DNA from: Clostridiales bacterium
GTDB lineage: Bacteria; Bacillota; Clostridia; Christensenellales; Borkfalkiaceae
NCBI GenBank assembly: GCA_015055545.1
Contig: SVHY01000020.1
Span: forward strand, 1 to 35,400
Length of the DNA stretch: 35,400 bases
Direction of reading: 5' to 3'
The position numbers and the translations under genes were made by a program. Numbering within the stretch: the stretch's first letter is position 1; every line of letters starts with the position of its first letter. This document shows, piece by piece, positions 3,736 to 23,998 of this stretch. The notes beneath the pieces were generated by a model, which saw only the letters and a program-made list of their open reading frames with translations, ran no database searches and was not told the origin of the DNA.

Positions 3736-4212
3736 ATGGTTATTGATATTATTTCGTATACCGAAGCGCAATACGCGGCGTTGAACGAGGAACTACTTTT
3801 AGAGGTGAAGTCGGCGCAGCTGAAAAAGAATACGTTGGATAGGAAACTGCAAGAGGATTTGGAAACGGAAAAACACCGACTTGTCAAAAACGGGATTTTC
3901 GATTCTAAAATTTGGAAGATATACAAAGACAAAAGACAAGCCGCACATGACGCGGAAGTGGAAACGTTGCGGGAATCGCTTCTCTTTTTCTTGCAATACG
4001 CCGCAAAAGCCGAACAGGAGTCTTCTACGCCCTATACCGTCGATTATTCGCTTACCATGCAAGAACGGTATAACGTCGTTAAAGATTATTATATGTCCGC
4101 GTACGATCAGCCTAACGCACGTTTGAATGCGTTCTTGAAAGATTCCGTCGCGACGGCGTATTTAGGCGAATGGTATTCGACGTTGTATAATTATTTGAAA
4201 GGCTTGGTGTGA
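3736..4212 (+). CDS. Helical protein at the end of the phage-like module, function unknown
   Basis: A 158-residue protein with a perfect RBS (AAGGAGG at 3723-3729) before ATG 3736. Nearly all of it is predicted alpha-helix by eye. Residues about 10-60 are Lys/Glu/Leu-rich and coiled-coil-like, and the C-terminus holds aromatic-rich helices (YNVVKDYYMSAYDQ, GEWYSTLYNYLKG). No signal peptide or transmembrane segment is visible. I do not recognise the family. By position it could be a tail, neck or chaperone protein of the head module. Its stop codon overlaps an ATG that opens a reading frame of only 11 codons, which hints that a further phage gene once followed. Confidence 0.5.
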   Translation: MVIDIISYTEAQYAALNEELLLEVKSAQLKKNTLDRKLQEDLETEKHRLVKNGIFDSKIWKIYKDKRQAAHDAEVETLRESLLFFLQYAAKAEQESSTPYTVDYSLTMQERYNVVKDYYMSAYDQPNARLNAFLKDSVATAYLGEWYSTLYNYLKGLV

Positions 4213-4247
4213 TGAAAGGAATTGCAAGCTACGTTTGCGGGAATTAA
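4212..4247 (+). pseudogene. Possible 11-codon remnant of a further phage gene
   Basis: An ATGA overlap with the preceding stop opens a frame reading MKGIASYVCGN and then stops. Tight coupling of this kind normally leads into a full gene, so this may be the 5' end of a truncated gene at the module edge. It could equally be chance. Confidence 0.25.
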
Positions 4248-4278
4248 AATTTTCAATGCACTATTTGTTGCCAAACGC

Positions 4279-21420: not shown

Positions 21421-22995
21421 TTATCGCTTAATTAACGATTTACCCGTCATTTCTTTGGGTTGTGCTACGTTCATCATGTCGAGCAGGGTGGGAGCAAGGT
21501 CGGCAAGCACGCCGTCGTTACGGAGCGTAGCGTTTTTGTATTCTTCCGATACCAAAATAACGGGTACGGGGAAGGTCGTGTGTTGCGTGAACGCGCCTAC
21601 GCCGTCGTCAGCCAGCATTTGGTCGGCGTTGCCGTGGTCTGCCGTAACGAGTGCGCTACCGCCCATCGCCAAGATTTTATCCGTTACTTTCTTCACACAT
21701 TCGTCCACCGTGTGAACGGCTTTAACTGCCGCGTCCATGATACCCGTATGTCCGACCATGTCGCAGTTGGCAAAGTTCAAAATGACTACGTCGTAAATAC
21801 CTTTATCGAGTTCTTCCAAAACCTTTTCGGTAACGGGATATGCGCTCATTTCCGGTTGTAAATCGTAGGTTGCTACTTTCGGGGAGGGGATTACGATACG
21901 CGTTTCGCCGTCTACGGGCGCTTCTAACTTCGCGTTGAAGAAGAAGGTTACGTGCGCGTATTTTTCCGTTTCCGCGATGTGCAGTTGTTTCATACCAAGC
22001 GACGCGATATATTGGGGCAGGGTGTTCGTGATTTCGTCGGGCGGGAACGCCACGCCGACGTTTTCAAACGAGGAATCGTATACCGCAAAACCCACGTAGC
22101 AGGGGGCAAGGAATCCCGTTTTTCTCTCAAAACCGAGCGTTGCGCCCGTTTTGGAGTCTACGAACGGGAATTTCTCTTGTGAGAACATTCTCGAAATTTG
22201 GCGCGCTCTGTCGGGGCGGAAGTTGAAGCAGATAATGCTGTCGTTCTTTTCGATAAGCGCAACGGGTTTGCCGTTTTCGGTCAAGTTGGTGGGCAGGATA
22301 AATTCGTCCGTTACGCCGCTAAGATAGGACGCGTTTGCCGCGGCTTCTGCGCTGCCTTCAAACTGTACGCCCGTGCCGAGTGTTAACATATCGTACGCCT
22401 TTTCTTCTCTATCCCAGTTGTTGTCGCGGTCCATAGCGTAATATCTGCCCGAAACGGACGCGATCTTACCGAAGCTGAGTTCGTCGAGCTTGGCTTGCAA
22501 GTCTTTTAAAAAGCTTGCGCCCGAAGTGGGGGCTACGTCGCGACCGTCGGTGAACGCGTGGATATACACGTTGTCCAAACCTTCCTTTTTCGCCATTTCA
22601 ACAAGCGCGTAAAGGTGTTCGGTGTGGCTGTGTACGCCGCCCGTGGAAACGAGCCCGTACAAGTGTAATTTCTTACCGTTCTTTTTCGCCGTGTGCATAG
22701 CGCGGAGCAGTTCGGCGTTTTTGAAAAATTCGCCGTTTCTAATATCTTTCGTGATTTTGGTCAAGTCTTGATACACGATACGGCCTGCACCGATATTGAG
22801 ATGTCCAACTTCGCTGTTGCCCATTTGACCGTCGGGAAGTCCAACCGACATACCGCTTGCGCCAAGCTGAGCGGAGGGGTATTCGGTTTTTAACTGATTG
22901 ACGTATTTGCTGCCGTCTTTTACGATAGCGTTGCCAACGGGCGACGGGTTGATGCCGTAGCCGTCCATGATAATAATTGCATAAGGTCTTTTCAT
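21421..22995 (-). CDS. gpmI: 2,3-bisphosphoglycerate-independent phosphoglycerate mutase
   Basis: A 524-residue Mn-dependent enzyme that interconverts 3- and 2-phosphoglycerate in glycolysis. It opens with the metal-binding IIIMDGYG (Asp11) and has the phosphorylated Ser61 in GQMGNSEVGHLNIGAGR. HAFTDGRDVAP, SGRYYAMDRDNNWDR, FRPDRARQ and the second metal site VTADHGNADQM...TQHT are all intact. The length is right for the family. It is the last gene of the pgk-tpiA-gpmI cluster; the 205 bases before it carry an unusual series of small hairpins. ATTTACTCCTGAA in front includes the minus-strand RBS CAGGAGT. Confidence 0.98.
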   Translation of the reverse strand: MKRPYAIIIMDGYGINPSPVGNAIVKDGSKYVNQLKTEYPSAQLGASGMSVGLPDGQMGNSEVGHLNIGAGRIVYQDLTKITKDIRNGEFFKNAELLRAMHTAKKNGKKLHLYGLVSTGGVHSHTEHLYALVEMAKKEGLDNVYIHAFTDGRDVAPTSGASFLKDLQAKLDELSFGKIASVSGRYYAMDRDNNWDREEKAYDMLTLGTGVQFEGSAEAAANASYLSGVTDEFILPTNLTENGKPVALIEKNDSIICFNFRPDRARQISRMFSQEKFPFVDSKTGATLGFERKTGFLAPCYVGFAVYDSSFENVGVAFPPDEITNTLPQYIASLGMKQLHIAETEKYAHVTFFFNAKLEAPVDGETRIVIPSPKVATYDLQPEMSAYPVTEKVLEELDKGIYDVVILNFANCDMVGHTGIMDAAVKAVHTVDECVKKVTDKILAMGGSALVTADHGNADQMLADDGVGAFTQHTTFPVPVILVSEEYKNATLRNDGVLADLAPTLLDMMNVAQPKEMTGKSLIKR

Positions 22996-23010
22996 AATTT
23001 ACTCCTGAAA

Positions 23011-23200
23011 ATGAATTGCAAGCAAAGCTTGCATGAATTGAAATAAATTTCATAAATTGCACTTTGTGCATGAATTGCAAAGCACTGCTTTGCATGATTG
23101 TAATATTTCCACAATGACGGCAAAGCCGTCTATTCACGAACGCAAAGCGTTCAATTCATGCGATTGACAATTGCAATTCACGCCCGTAGGGGCAATTCAT
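23011..23200. repeat. Array of six short stem-loops between tpiA and gpmI
   Basis: Six compact inverted repeats lie in about 180 bases: 23018-23032 (GCAAGC-AAA-GCTTGC), 23058-23070 (TGCAC-TTT-GTGCA), 23077-23093 (GCAAAG-CACTG-CTTTGC), 23116-23130 (GACGGC-AAA-GCCGTC), 23138-23152 (GAACGC-AAA-GCGTTC) and 23182-23193 (GCCC-GTAG-GGGC). The stems have different sequences but keep full pairing. Four have three-base AAA/TTT loops. Most are separated by variants of ATGAATTG or its complement CAATTCAT. There is no gene here. It is not a CRISPR array, because there are no identical long repeats. Confidence 0.85.
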
Positions 23201-23947
23201 TTACTTATCAAAGTTTACGATTGCCGCAAAGTCGGGGGCTTTGAGCGACGCGCCGCCGATAAGACCGCCGTCGATTTCTTCTTTCGCCATCAATTCTTTG
23301 CAGTTGCCTGCGTTCATGCTGCCGCCGTATTGGATACGAACTTTTTCCGCGCATTTGGGACAGAACATTTCGCCGATCGTTTTACGGATATACGCAATCG
23401 TTTCGTTGGCTTGATCTGCCGTAGCCGTTTTGCCCGTGCCGATAGCCCAAACGGGTTCGTAAGCGATAACCACTTGTTTAATGTCTTCGATATCTTTCAA
23501 ACCGTTTTTGATTTGCGTAGCAAGCACTTCTTCCGTTTTGCCCGTTTCTCTTTCTTCCAAGCTTTCGCCGATACATACGATAGGGGTTAAACCTGCTTTG
23601 AGCGCGGTGAGCGTACGTTTGTTCACCGTTTCGTCCGTTTCGCCGAAGTATTGACGGCGTTCGCTATGTCCGATGATAACGTATTCTACGCCGTATTCAA
23701 GGAGCATAGCCGCAGAGATTTCACCCGTGTACGCGCCTTTTTCCGCAAAGTGTACGTTTTCCGCACCGAGTTTGATGTTCGTGCCTTTCAAAGCCGCGCT
23801 TACAACGGGGATATCAATAGCGGGTACGCATACGACGACGTCGCAGTTTGCTTCCGTTACGAGGGGCGCAATCGCATTGACAAGGGCTACGCCTTCGGAG
23901 GCGGTGTTGTTCATTTTCCAGTTTCCTGCAATAATAGGTTTACGCAT
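23201..23947 (-). CDS. tpiA: Triose-phosphate isomerase
   Basis: A 248-residue TIM-barrel enzyme that interconverts dihydroxyacetone phosphate and glyceraldehyde 3-phosphate. Catalytic residues are present: Lys11 in AGNWKMN, His94 in IIGHSERR and Glu164 in AYEPVWAIGTG. The phosphate-binding GGSMNAGNCKE and GGLIGGASLK at the end are intact. The length is standard. It follows pgk by 64 bases containing a 9-bp stem-loop, and gpmI follows after the stem-loop array. Confidence 0.98.
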   Translation of the reverse strand: MRKPIIAGNWKMNNTASEGVALVNAIAPLVTEANCDVVVCVPAIDIPVVSAALKGTNIKLGAENVHFAEKGAYTGEISAAMLLEYGVEYVIIGHSERRQYFGETDETVNKRTLTALKAGLTPIVCIGESLEERETGKTEEVLATQIKNGLKDIEDIKQVVIAYEPVWAIGTGKTATADQANETIAYIRKTIGEMFCPKCAEKVRIQYGGSMNAGNCKELMAKEEIDGGLIGGASLKAPDFAAIVNFDK

Positions 23948-23977: not shown

Positions 23978-23998
23978 TGGGGCGACATAGTCGCCCCA
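23978..23998 (-). repeat. 9-bp stem-loop between pgk and tpiA
   Basis: TGGGGCGAC at 23978-23986 and its exact complement at 23990-23998 enclose three bases. No T run follows on the minus strand, so it is not a standard terminator of pgk. Together with the tpiA-gpmI array it may protect or punctuate the operon mRNA. Confidence 0.75.

Follow-up and report, generated by a model that had tools for sequence, protein, structure and literature searches.

In bacteria, a family of palindromic repeats usually consists of copies of a single hairpin, and the arms of REP elements are alike within a genome. REP, BIME and REPIN elements are short extragenic palindromes next to a conserved tag, often arranged as inverted pairs and present in many copies per genome, a description drawn partly from an excerpt of PMC3733652 and partly from general background. 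Rows of palindromes occur at Streptomyces telomeres, for which an excerpt of PMC7205883 describes the terminal 180 nt as holding five to eight palindromic stems, many of them GNA-capped, together with compensatory changes, fold-back models termed 'rabbit ears' and 'clover leaves', and CTTG loops instead in some telomeres. According to an excerpt of PMC4496689, the early promoter hairpins of bacteriophage N4 have small stems, depend on closure by a C-G pair and on G..A loop bases in one strand, and are extruded at physiological supercoiling, the other stem bases being free if pairing is kept.

The gap between tpiA and gpmI in the window (the whole stretch of DNA analysed, 35,400 nucleotides) carries an element that behaves in part like REP elements and the packed palindromes of telomeres, and that differs from each in a defining trait. 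Like REPs and REPINs, its long copies pair tagged hairpins in inverted orientation, with TGAATTG on the left and CAATTCA on the right; unlike them, the tag is TGAATTG-like or another sequence, the hairpins vary by module and number about eight per long element, and there is no association with Y1_Tnp. In contrast to the Streptomyces telomeres, the element is internal, dispersed, built of two inverted halves with conserved spacers, and found in Clostridia; the source-genome copies read lie between genes and not at the end of a linear replicon. The N4 hairpins differ in being single promoter hairpins read by a phage RNA polymerase. With MITEs the element shares a non-coding sequence of ~200 bp, inverted ends, an intergenic position and presence or absence between relatives, but it contains an internal hairpin array, and inspection of the flanks of 12 long copies by eye showed no target-site duplication. 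Hairpin-forming or palindromic repeats are also reported for the intergenic DNA of Volvox and sponge organelle genomes (PMC2670323 and PMC2800124); these are organelle sequences, and the resemblance to the present element is a general one. Searches of the literature for the element itself and for mechanisms and analogues, with subscription papers mostly outside their coverage, found no description of this family.

We propose that the array belongs to a dispersed family of non-coding, mobile-type repeats of ~200 bp present in some uncultured gut Clostridia, in which two hairpin arrays meet head to head, the arms would be kept complementary at the DNA level, and spread would depend on an enzyme recognising spacer plus hairpin. 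We hold this reading with about even confidence. Here the joining sequence is conserved while the hairpin is free yet perfect, across species. This separates the need for a hairpin from the need for a particular sequence, and offers hundreds of natural replicates of how palindromes are written and kept, whether by template switching, by repair or by an enzyme.

The array between tpiA and gpmI

The element is 192 bases long and modular, with eight hairpin modules, and fills the tpiA-gpmI gap except for the gpmI ribosome-binding region. Its features, in window coordinates, are as follows.

21421..22995, minus strand: gpmI, 2,3-bisphosphoglycerate-independent phosphoglycerate mutase, downstream gene (NCBIfam TIGR01307 above cut-off)
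23010..23201, unstranded: whole element, left half-array, central palindrome and right half-array
23010..23018, plus strand: outer left spacer AATGAATTG, pairs with 23193-23201
23017..23033, unstranded: hairpin 1, TGCAAGC-AAA-GCTTGCA, perfect stem of 7 bp
23032..23040, plus strand: left spacer CATGAATTG, seen in the sequence
23039..23052, unstranded: hairpin 2, TGAAA..TTTCA, perfect stem of 5 bp
23051..23059, plus strand: left spacer CATAAATTG, one change, seen in the sequence
23058..23070, unstranded: hairpin 3, TGCAC-TTT-GTGCA, perfect stem of 5 bp
23069..23077, plus strand: left spacer CATGAATTG, second copy, seen in the sequence
23076..23094, unstranded: hairpin 4, TGCAAAGC-ACT-GCTTTGCA, perfect stem of 8 bp
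23095..23115, unstranded: central imperfect palindrome of ATTATGGAAATATTTCCACAATG type, conserved in the alignment of long copies
23116..23130, unstranded: hairpin 5, GACGGC-AAA-GCCGTC, perfect stem of 6 bp
23138..23152, unstranded: hairpin 6, GAACGC-AAA-GCGTTC, perfect stem of 6 bp
23152..23160, minus strand: right spacer CAATTCATG, seen in the sequence
23161..23173, unstranded: module 7, CGATTGACAATTG, with one G-T pair, from the module parse
23174..23182, minus strand: right spacer CAATTCACG, seen in the sequence
23182..23193, unstranded: hairpin 8, GCCC-GTAG-GGGC, stem of 4 bp
23193..23201, minus strand: outer right spacer CAATTCATT, last base within the tpiA stop codon
23201..23947, minus strand: tpiA, triose-phosphate isomerase, upstream gene (NCBIfam TIGR00419 above cut-off)

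The spacers are of the TGAATTG type in the left half and of its reverse complement, CAATTCA, in the right half, and the element is thus composed of two head-to-head half-arrays around a central palindrome. Its ends, AATGAATTG and CAATTCATT, form terminal inverted repeats of the kind that defines MITEs. A search for tandem repeats found none.

A sequence-only reading of this DNA had placed a row of six stem-loops between the two genes, and a row is indeed found there, well beyond what the surrounding sequence yields. The element contains six perfect stems that do not overlap, each with 5 bp or more and a loop of 3-4 bases, and a seventh has 4 bp, whereas 357 other 193-base windows of the contig contain none (212), one (117) or two (28) such stems, and 2000 dinucleotide shuffles of the segment gave a maximum of five, reached once. 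The motif ATGAATTG occurs five times in the whole window, always inside the element (shuffles: mean 1.4, maximum 4). The stems listed in that reading are present, and the flanking genes are the two it named, but the array, with eight modules, is larger than it described; the spacers are variants of a common motif, as it had said of most of them, and their inversion between the halves had been missed.

Copies in the source genome and its relatives

The element belongs to a family with many copies in the source genome. The first pattern tried there, CAATTCATGAATTG, gave no match. The spacer CATGAATTG occurs 37 times in the 1.95 Mb, in clusters, as against four occurrences of the reversed control. 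At E up to 1, BLAST of the element against the genome returned 60 pieces distributed over 40 places, of which 33 have E up to 0.01, and a model of the left half gave 44 matches among the matches listed, with halves counted apart. The proposal that the hairpins form a family of mobile palindromic units is supported, the family being dispersed and probably mobile; since units are this abundant elsewhere in the genome, the proposal stands, although the tpiA-gpmI gaps of 29 out of 29 relatives read are free of them.

The order of modules is the same in an alignment of 12 long copies (128-200 bp), each being composed of two inverted arrays of about four mini-hairpins that lie between copies of a conserved 7-9-base spacer; in shorter copies, whole modules are missing between spacers. 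By a crude gene caller, whose codon table was trained on eight genes of the window, all 12 long copies lie in gaps between same-direction genes, and 11 of them begin at most 9 nt from the upstream stop codon or provide that codon. Shorter fragments were found also between convergent or divergent genes. The gaps that hold copies include gyrB-gyrA, prmC-prfA, ybaB-recR and one after a threonine ammonia-lyase gene, so there is nothing special to glycolysis in the position between tpiA and gpmI.

A second repeat, with the motif CGCCATAGCGT in 12 of 292 loci and different hairpins (ACGCCATAGCGT.., GCAACCTACGGTTGC..), adjoins some elements in the source genome (loci L077, L084, L090 and L069).

At two operon gaps the source genome carries the element and the relatives read are free of it. 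For tpiA-gpmI, 33 relatives in the genus gave a tpiA match, and the gap was read in 29 of them and in the source genome, revealing the array in one of 30 gaps, that of the source genome alone; 13 of the 29 relatives without it there carry the family elsewhere, among the matches listed. The comparison across relatives that had been suggested for this gap therefore gave no further units and, in most cases, another hairpin: by eye, the tpiA-gpmI gap of nearly all 29 relatives (L032-L060) has a shared stem-loop of GGGGCAGGTATGCGTT..AACGCATACCTGCCCC type, with ATTTTG after it. This stem-loop is absent from the source gap, where the array stands in its place; it is gone and does not flank the element, which indicates replacement rather than clean insertion. 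The neighbouring pgk-tpiA gap has a hairpin of its own, TGGGGCGACATAGTCGCCCCA, at 23978-23998 of the window, and several relatives have a different hairpin there.

The prmC-prfA gap was read at 22 of 30 fetched loci (the source and 21 same-genus relatives). In the source genome it measures 214 nt with the element and 16 nt without, and it is 18 nt in the relative with the closest prfA. Among the 21 relatives it ranges from 7 to 258 nt, being at most 60 nt in 17, and none of these 21 gaps shows the array; in some of them another hairpin was seen by eye.

The spread of the family across the genus and order, as judged by matches to a model of the left half (R1, built from 19 sequences) under stricter filters that lose weak matches, is patchy. 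Among the matches listed, R1 was found in 24 of 57 genomes of the genus, the source included, with 1-65 matches each, in only two of the 12 genus genomes whose completeness reaches 90% and whose contamination does not exceed 5%, and in 29 of 297 genomes (13 of 125 genera) of the order. At the phylum level it was found in one of 398 genomes, the source genome only. A pattern scan of named genome contigs returned 91 stretches, and the 80 that were listed are all titled as Clostridia, Oscillospiraceae, Clostridiales or Ruminococcus MAGs, many of them from goat, sheep or deer gut. Putative viral contigs gave two stretches among those listed, both carrying, by eye, the same copy as locus L122. In a collected set of elements 64 were kept, with duplicates and matches without a recognised right end excluded. 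Loci L266 and L178 share one element copy together with its flank, so that genome G022 of the genus is apparently isolate RGIG4180, from roe deer colon.

One type of copy (L112-type, among L112-L201) is, in many of the cases listed, preceded by a GCGTGTTATCC..GGAGAACACGC hairpin and, again in many of those listed, followed by a terminator-like AGAGCAAGAATA..TCTTGCTCT hairpin, so the repeated block is longer there.

Arm variation, pairing and the type of hairpin

The arms vary freely while their pairing is kept. A set of 437 modules was collected by requiring an exact TGAATTG on both sides, and their spacers are therefore alike by choice. Their 1829 pairs comprise 1717 Watson-Crick pairs (94%), 24 G-U, 29 A-C and 59 others; 357 modules are perfect, as against a mean of 13 and a maximum of 24 after shuffling, and 65 distinct perfect arms are represented. 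In the alignment of left halves, 97.1% of cells pair (shuffles 85.9), 33 cells are changed on both sides (shuffles 7.7) and the covariation score is 0.282 (shuffles 0.099), values that none of 500 shuffles reached in any of the three cases. Two further measures do not stand out: 43 of 500 shuffles had at least as many pairs changed on both sides (6), and 242 of 500 at least as many further pair types (15).

Across genera, the arms are mostly different yet paired, and TGAATTG is unchanged, the modules being flanked by [CG][AG]TGAATTG. In 99 arrays found regardless of spacer, the common substring of arms within an array averages 1.83, identical to the value of 1.83 for random arms taken across all arrays, whereas spacers share 4.37 of 6 bases. 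The claim that arms differ with pairing preserved is thereby upheld. Its companion, that simple duplication is not the source, holds for the arms and fails for whole elements, which are homologous copies.

Arrays of the same build with other uniform spacers, of the CGATAT, AGTGAAGTT, CGTGAAATG, ATATCACG and ATGATG types, with TGAAGTT and TGAAATG also named, were found at L151:7732, L213:2546, L172:15, L189:1181, L205:1611, L225:1507 and L276:520. They suggest a wider class.

A trunk fold, with paired spacers and four-way junctions, is the minimum-energy DNA fold of one copy (L063) and is partial in others. In its support, copies starting with G end with C in 11 of 13 cases, as against two of 63 other copies. 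The pairing of left with right spacers is imperfect, however, with T-T mismatches common and some right halves carrying other, non-pairing spacers, and on these grounds we do not claim the trunk as a selected structure.

The hairpins could act as RNA or as DNA. The former was one role suggested by the sequence-only reading, in which a beaded mRNA could control RNA decay or differential expression. As a rival explanation it would be an intercistronic structure, selected because it guards the upstream message from 3' exonucleases, sets processing sites or tunes differential expression, functions that REP or BIME hairpins have in certain operons. The position of the long copies in same-direction gaps, 11 of 12 at or near the upstream stop codon, is in its favour, but tight gaps offer few other places for insertion. 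The other hairpins seen in most relatives between tpiA and gpmI, and in some between prmC and prfA, are also consistent with it. RNA folds of three copies lie far below those of shuffled sequences (z of -5.8 to -6.9), but DNA parameters give similar values (-5.3 to -7.5), so fold energy does not discriminate.

G-U pairs are far better tolerated in RNA stems than A-C mismatches. In the full set, counted in spacer orientation with mixed orientation to transcription, G-U is no commoner than A-C (24 and 29 in 1829 pairs), nor is it in the L112-type copies (9 and 13), as expected from single transitions; a smaller parse of modules points in the opposite direction (6 and 2). As a weak control, tRNAs contained 16 G-U in 168 pairs (9.5%), from eight tRNAs of the same loci and from ARAGORN-bracketed pairs only. 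The 12 long copies are divided 6:6 in their orientation to transcription. Rfam gave no match in the window at gathering score; the best sub-threshold match, FourU (20.1 against 60 bits), was set aside as likely chance.

The loops differ between strands. On the CAATTCA strand, GNA or GNNA loops occur in 64 of 134 distinct modules from genomes other than G000 and G020, with the mirror type in five; in G000 and G020 they are a minority (12 of 47 modules, with the mirror type in two). The apical pair has a 5' C in 121 of the 134 and in 37 of the 47. These counts exclude modules with fewer than two pairs or with imperfect stems, and since modules share ancestry, neither loops nor pairs are independent events. 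C(GNA)G and C(GNNA)G are exceptionally stable DNA loops. GNRA is not preferred among the tetraloops: GNNA has a purine as its third base in 19 and a pyrimidine in 18. The AAA loops of the tpiA-gpmI element recall a solved DNA AAA triloop, known here from a title cited in PMC5430850.

Together, G-U pairs no commoner than A-C and strand-biased loops without GNRA preference point to DNA rather than RNA hairpins. On this evidence an RNA role appears unlikely as the explanation of the arrays, and the role in mRNA that had been proposed for them is not supported; an effect on mRNA within operons is possible. The strand-biased, DNA-type loops suggest possible folding of single-stranded DNA at these gaps, for example in the gyrB-gyrA operon.

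Possible routes of spread and maintenance

We therefore return to the proposal of a mobile-type repeat with arms kept complementary as DNA hairpins. In this pathway, modules would fold when their strand is single-stranded, on the lagging strand or upon supercoil extrusion, many of them with a loop of the C(GNA)G or C(GNNA)G kind on the CAATTCA strand, and template switching or repair would then copy one arm onto the other. Whole elements would then be spread by an enzyme that recognises spacer plus hairpin and is not a RAYT, and copies would survive where harm is small, in the stretch from a stop codon to the following ribosome-binding site. Any consequences for mRNA would be by-products. Template switching, which can create and restore perfect hairpins according to an excerpt of PMC8794818, would explain arms that drift yet stay matched. 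Loop inversion, a footprint of template switching, was not significant, with three reverse-complement loop pairs of 301 as against one and one in controls. The conserved spacers and their inversion between the halves suggest that something recognises spacer plus hairpin.

A history without a mover or a function of its own, in which old repeats were spread by recombination and are palindromic only through mutation bias (template switching at quasi-palindromes), would account for arms that drift freely while pairing stays, through the same capacity of template switching to make and maintain perfect hairpins, and for the loss of whole modules between spacers. It leaves unexplained the conservation of spacers across genera, the strand-biased loop types, and the fact that some genomes have as many as 65 matches and other species of the genus have none (among the matches listed), and we consider it improbable.

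A bolder possibility, which we regard as rather doubtful, is a new class of element with a CRISPR-like layout, in which the spacer would be repeated by duplication and the hypervariable unit would in every case be a fresh mini-hairpin of DNA, perfect and frequently carrying a C(GNA)G or C(GNNA)G loop, with an enzyme writing a palindrome at the spacer and duplicating the spacer. Such an enzyme would explain the uniform spacers, the random-like arms and the same build with other spacers.

It is very unlikely that the element is a REP or REPIN member mobilised by a RAYT tyrosine transposase, with TGAATTG replacing the GTAG tag. The tag beside a hairpin, the inverted pairs, the intergenic position and the many copies fit such an origin, but no GTAG or CGTC tag is present at the hairpin foot, and the arms differ within a genome, unlike those of REPs. 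Y1_Tnp (PF01797), the sole family searched as a candidate mover, was not found in the source genome (83% complete), and scored above cut-off in three of 14 element-rich and five of 14 element-free genomes, all of them incomplete, with no association.

A row of transcription terminators or attenuators can be dismissed as barely credible, given that the one terminator-like consensus match in the element (23033-23017, minus strand) has the tail ATTCATTTTC, no long T-runs follow the stems, and gpmI, gyrA, prfA and recR, within what appear to be operons, each have a copy upstream.

Two further repeats were observed in the window. A weak, decayed fragment of the family (E 0.015) lies at 4215-4250, just past the stop codon of a gene ending at 4212, and a 28-nt inverted repeat, 96% complementary, occupies positions 1-72 at the start of the contig.
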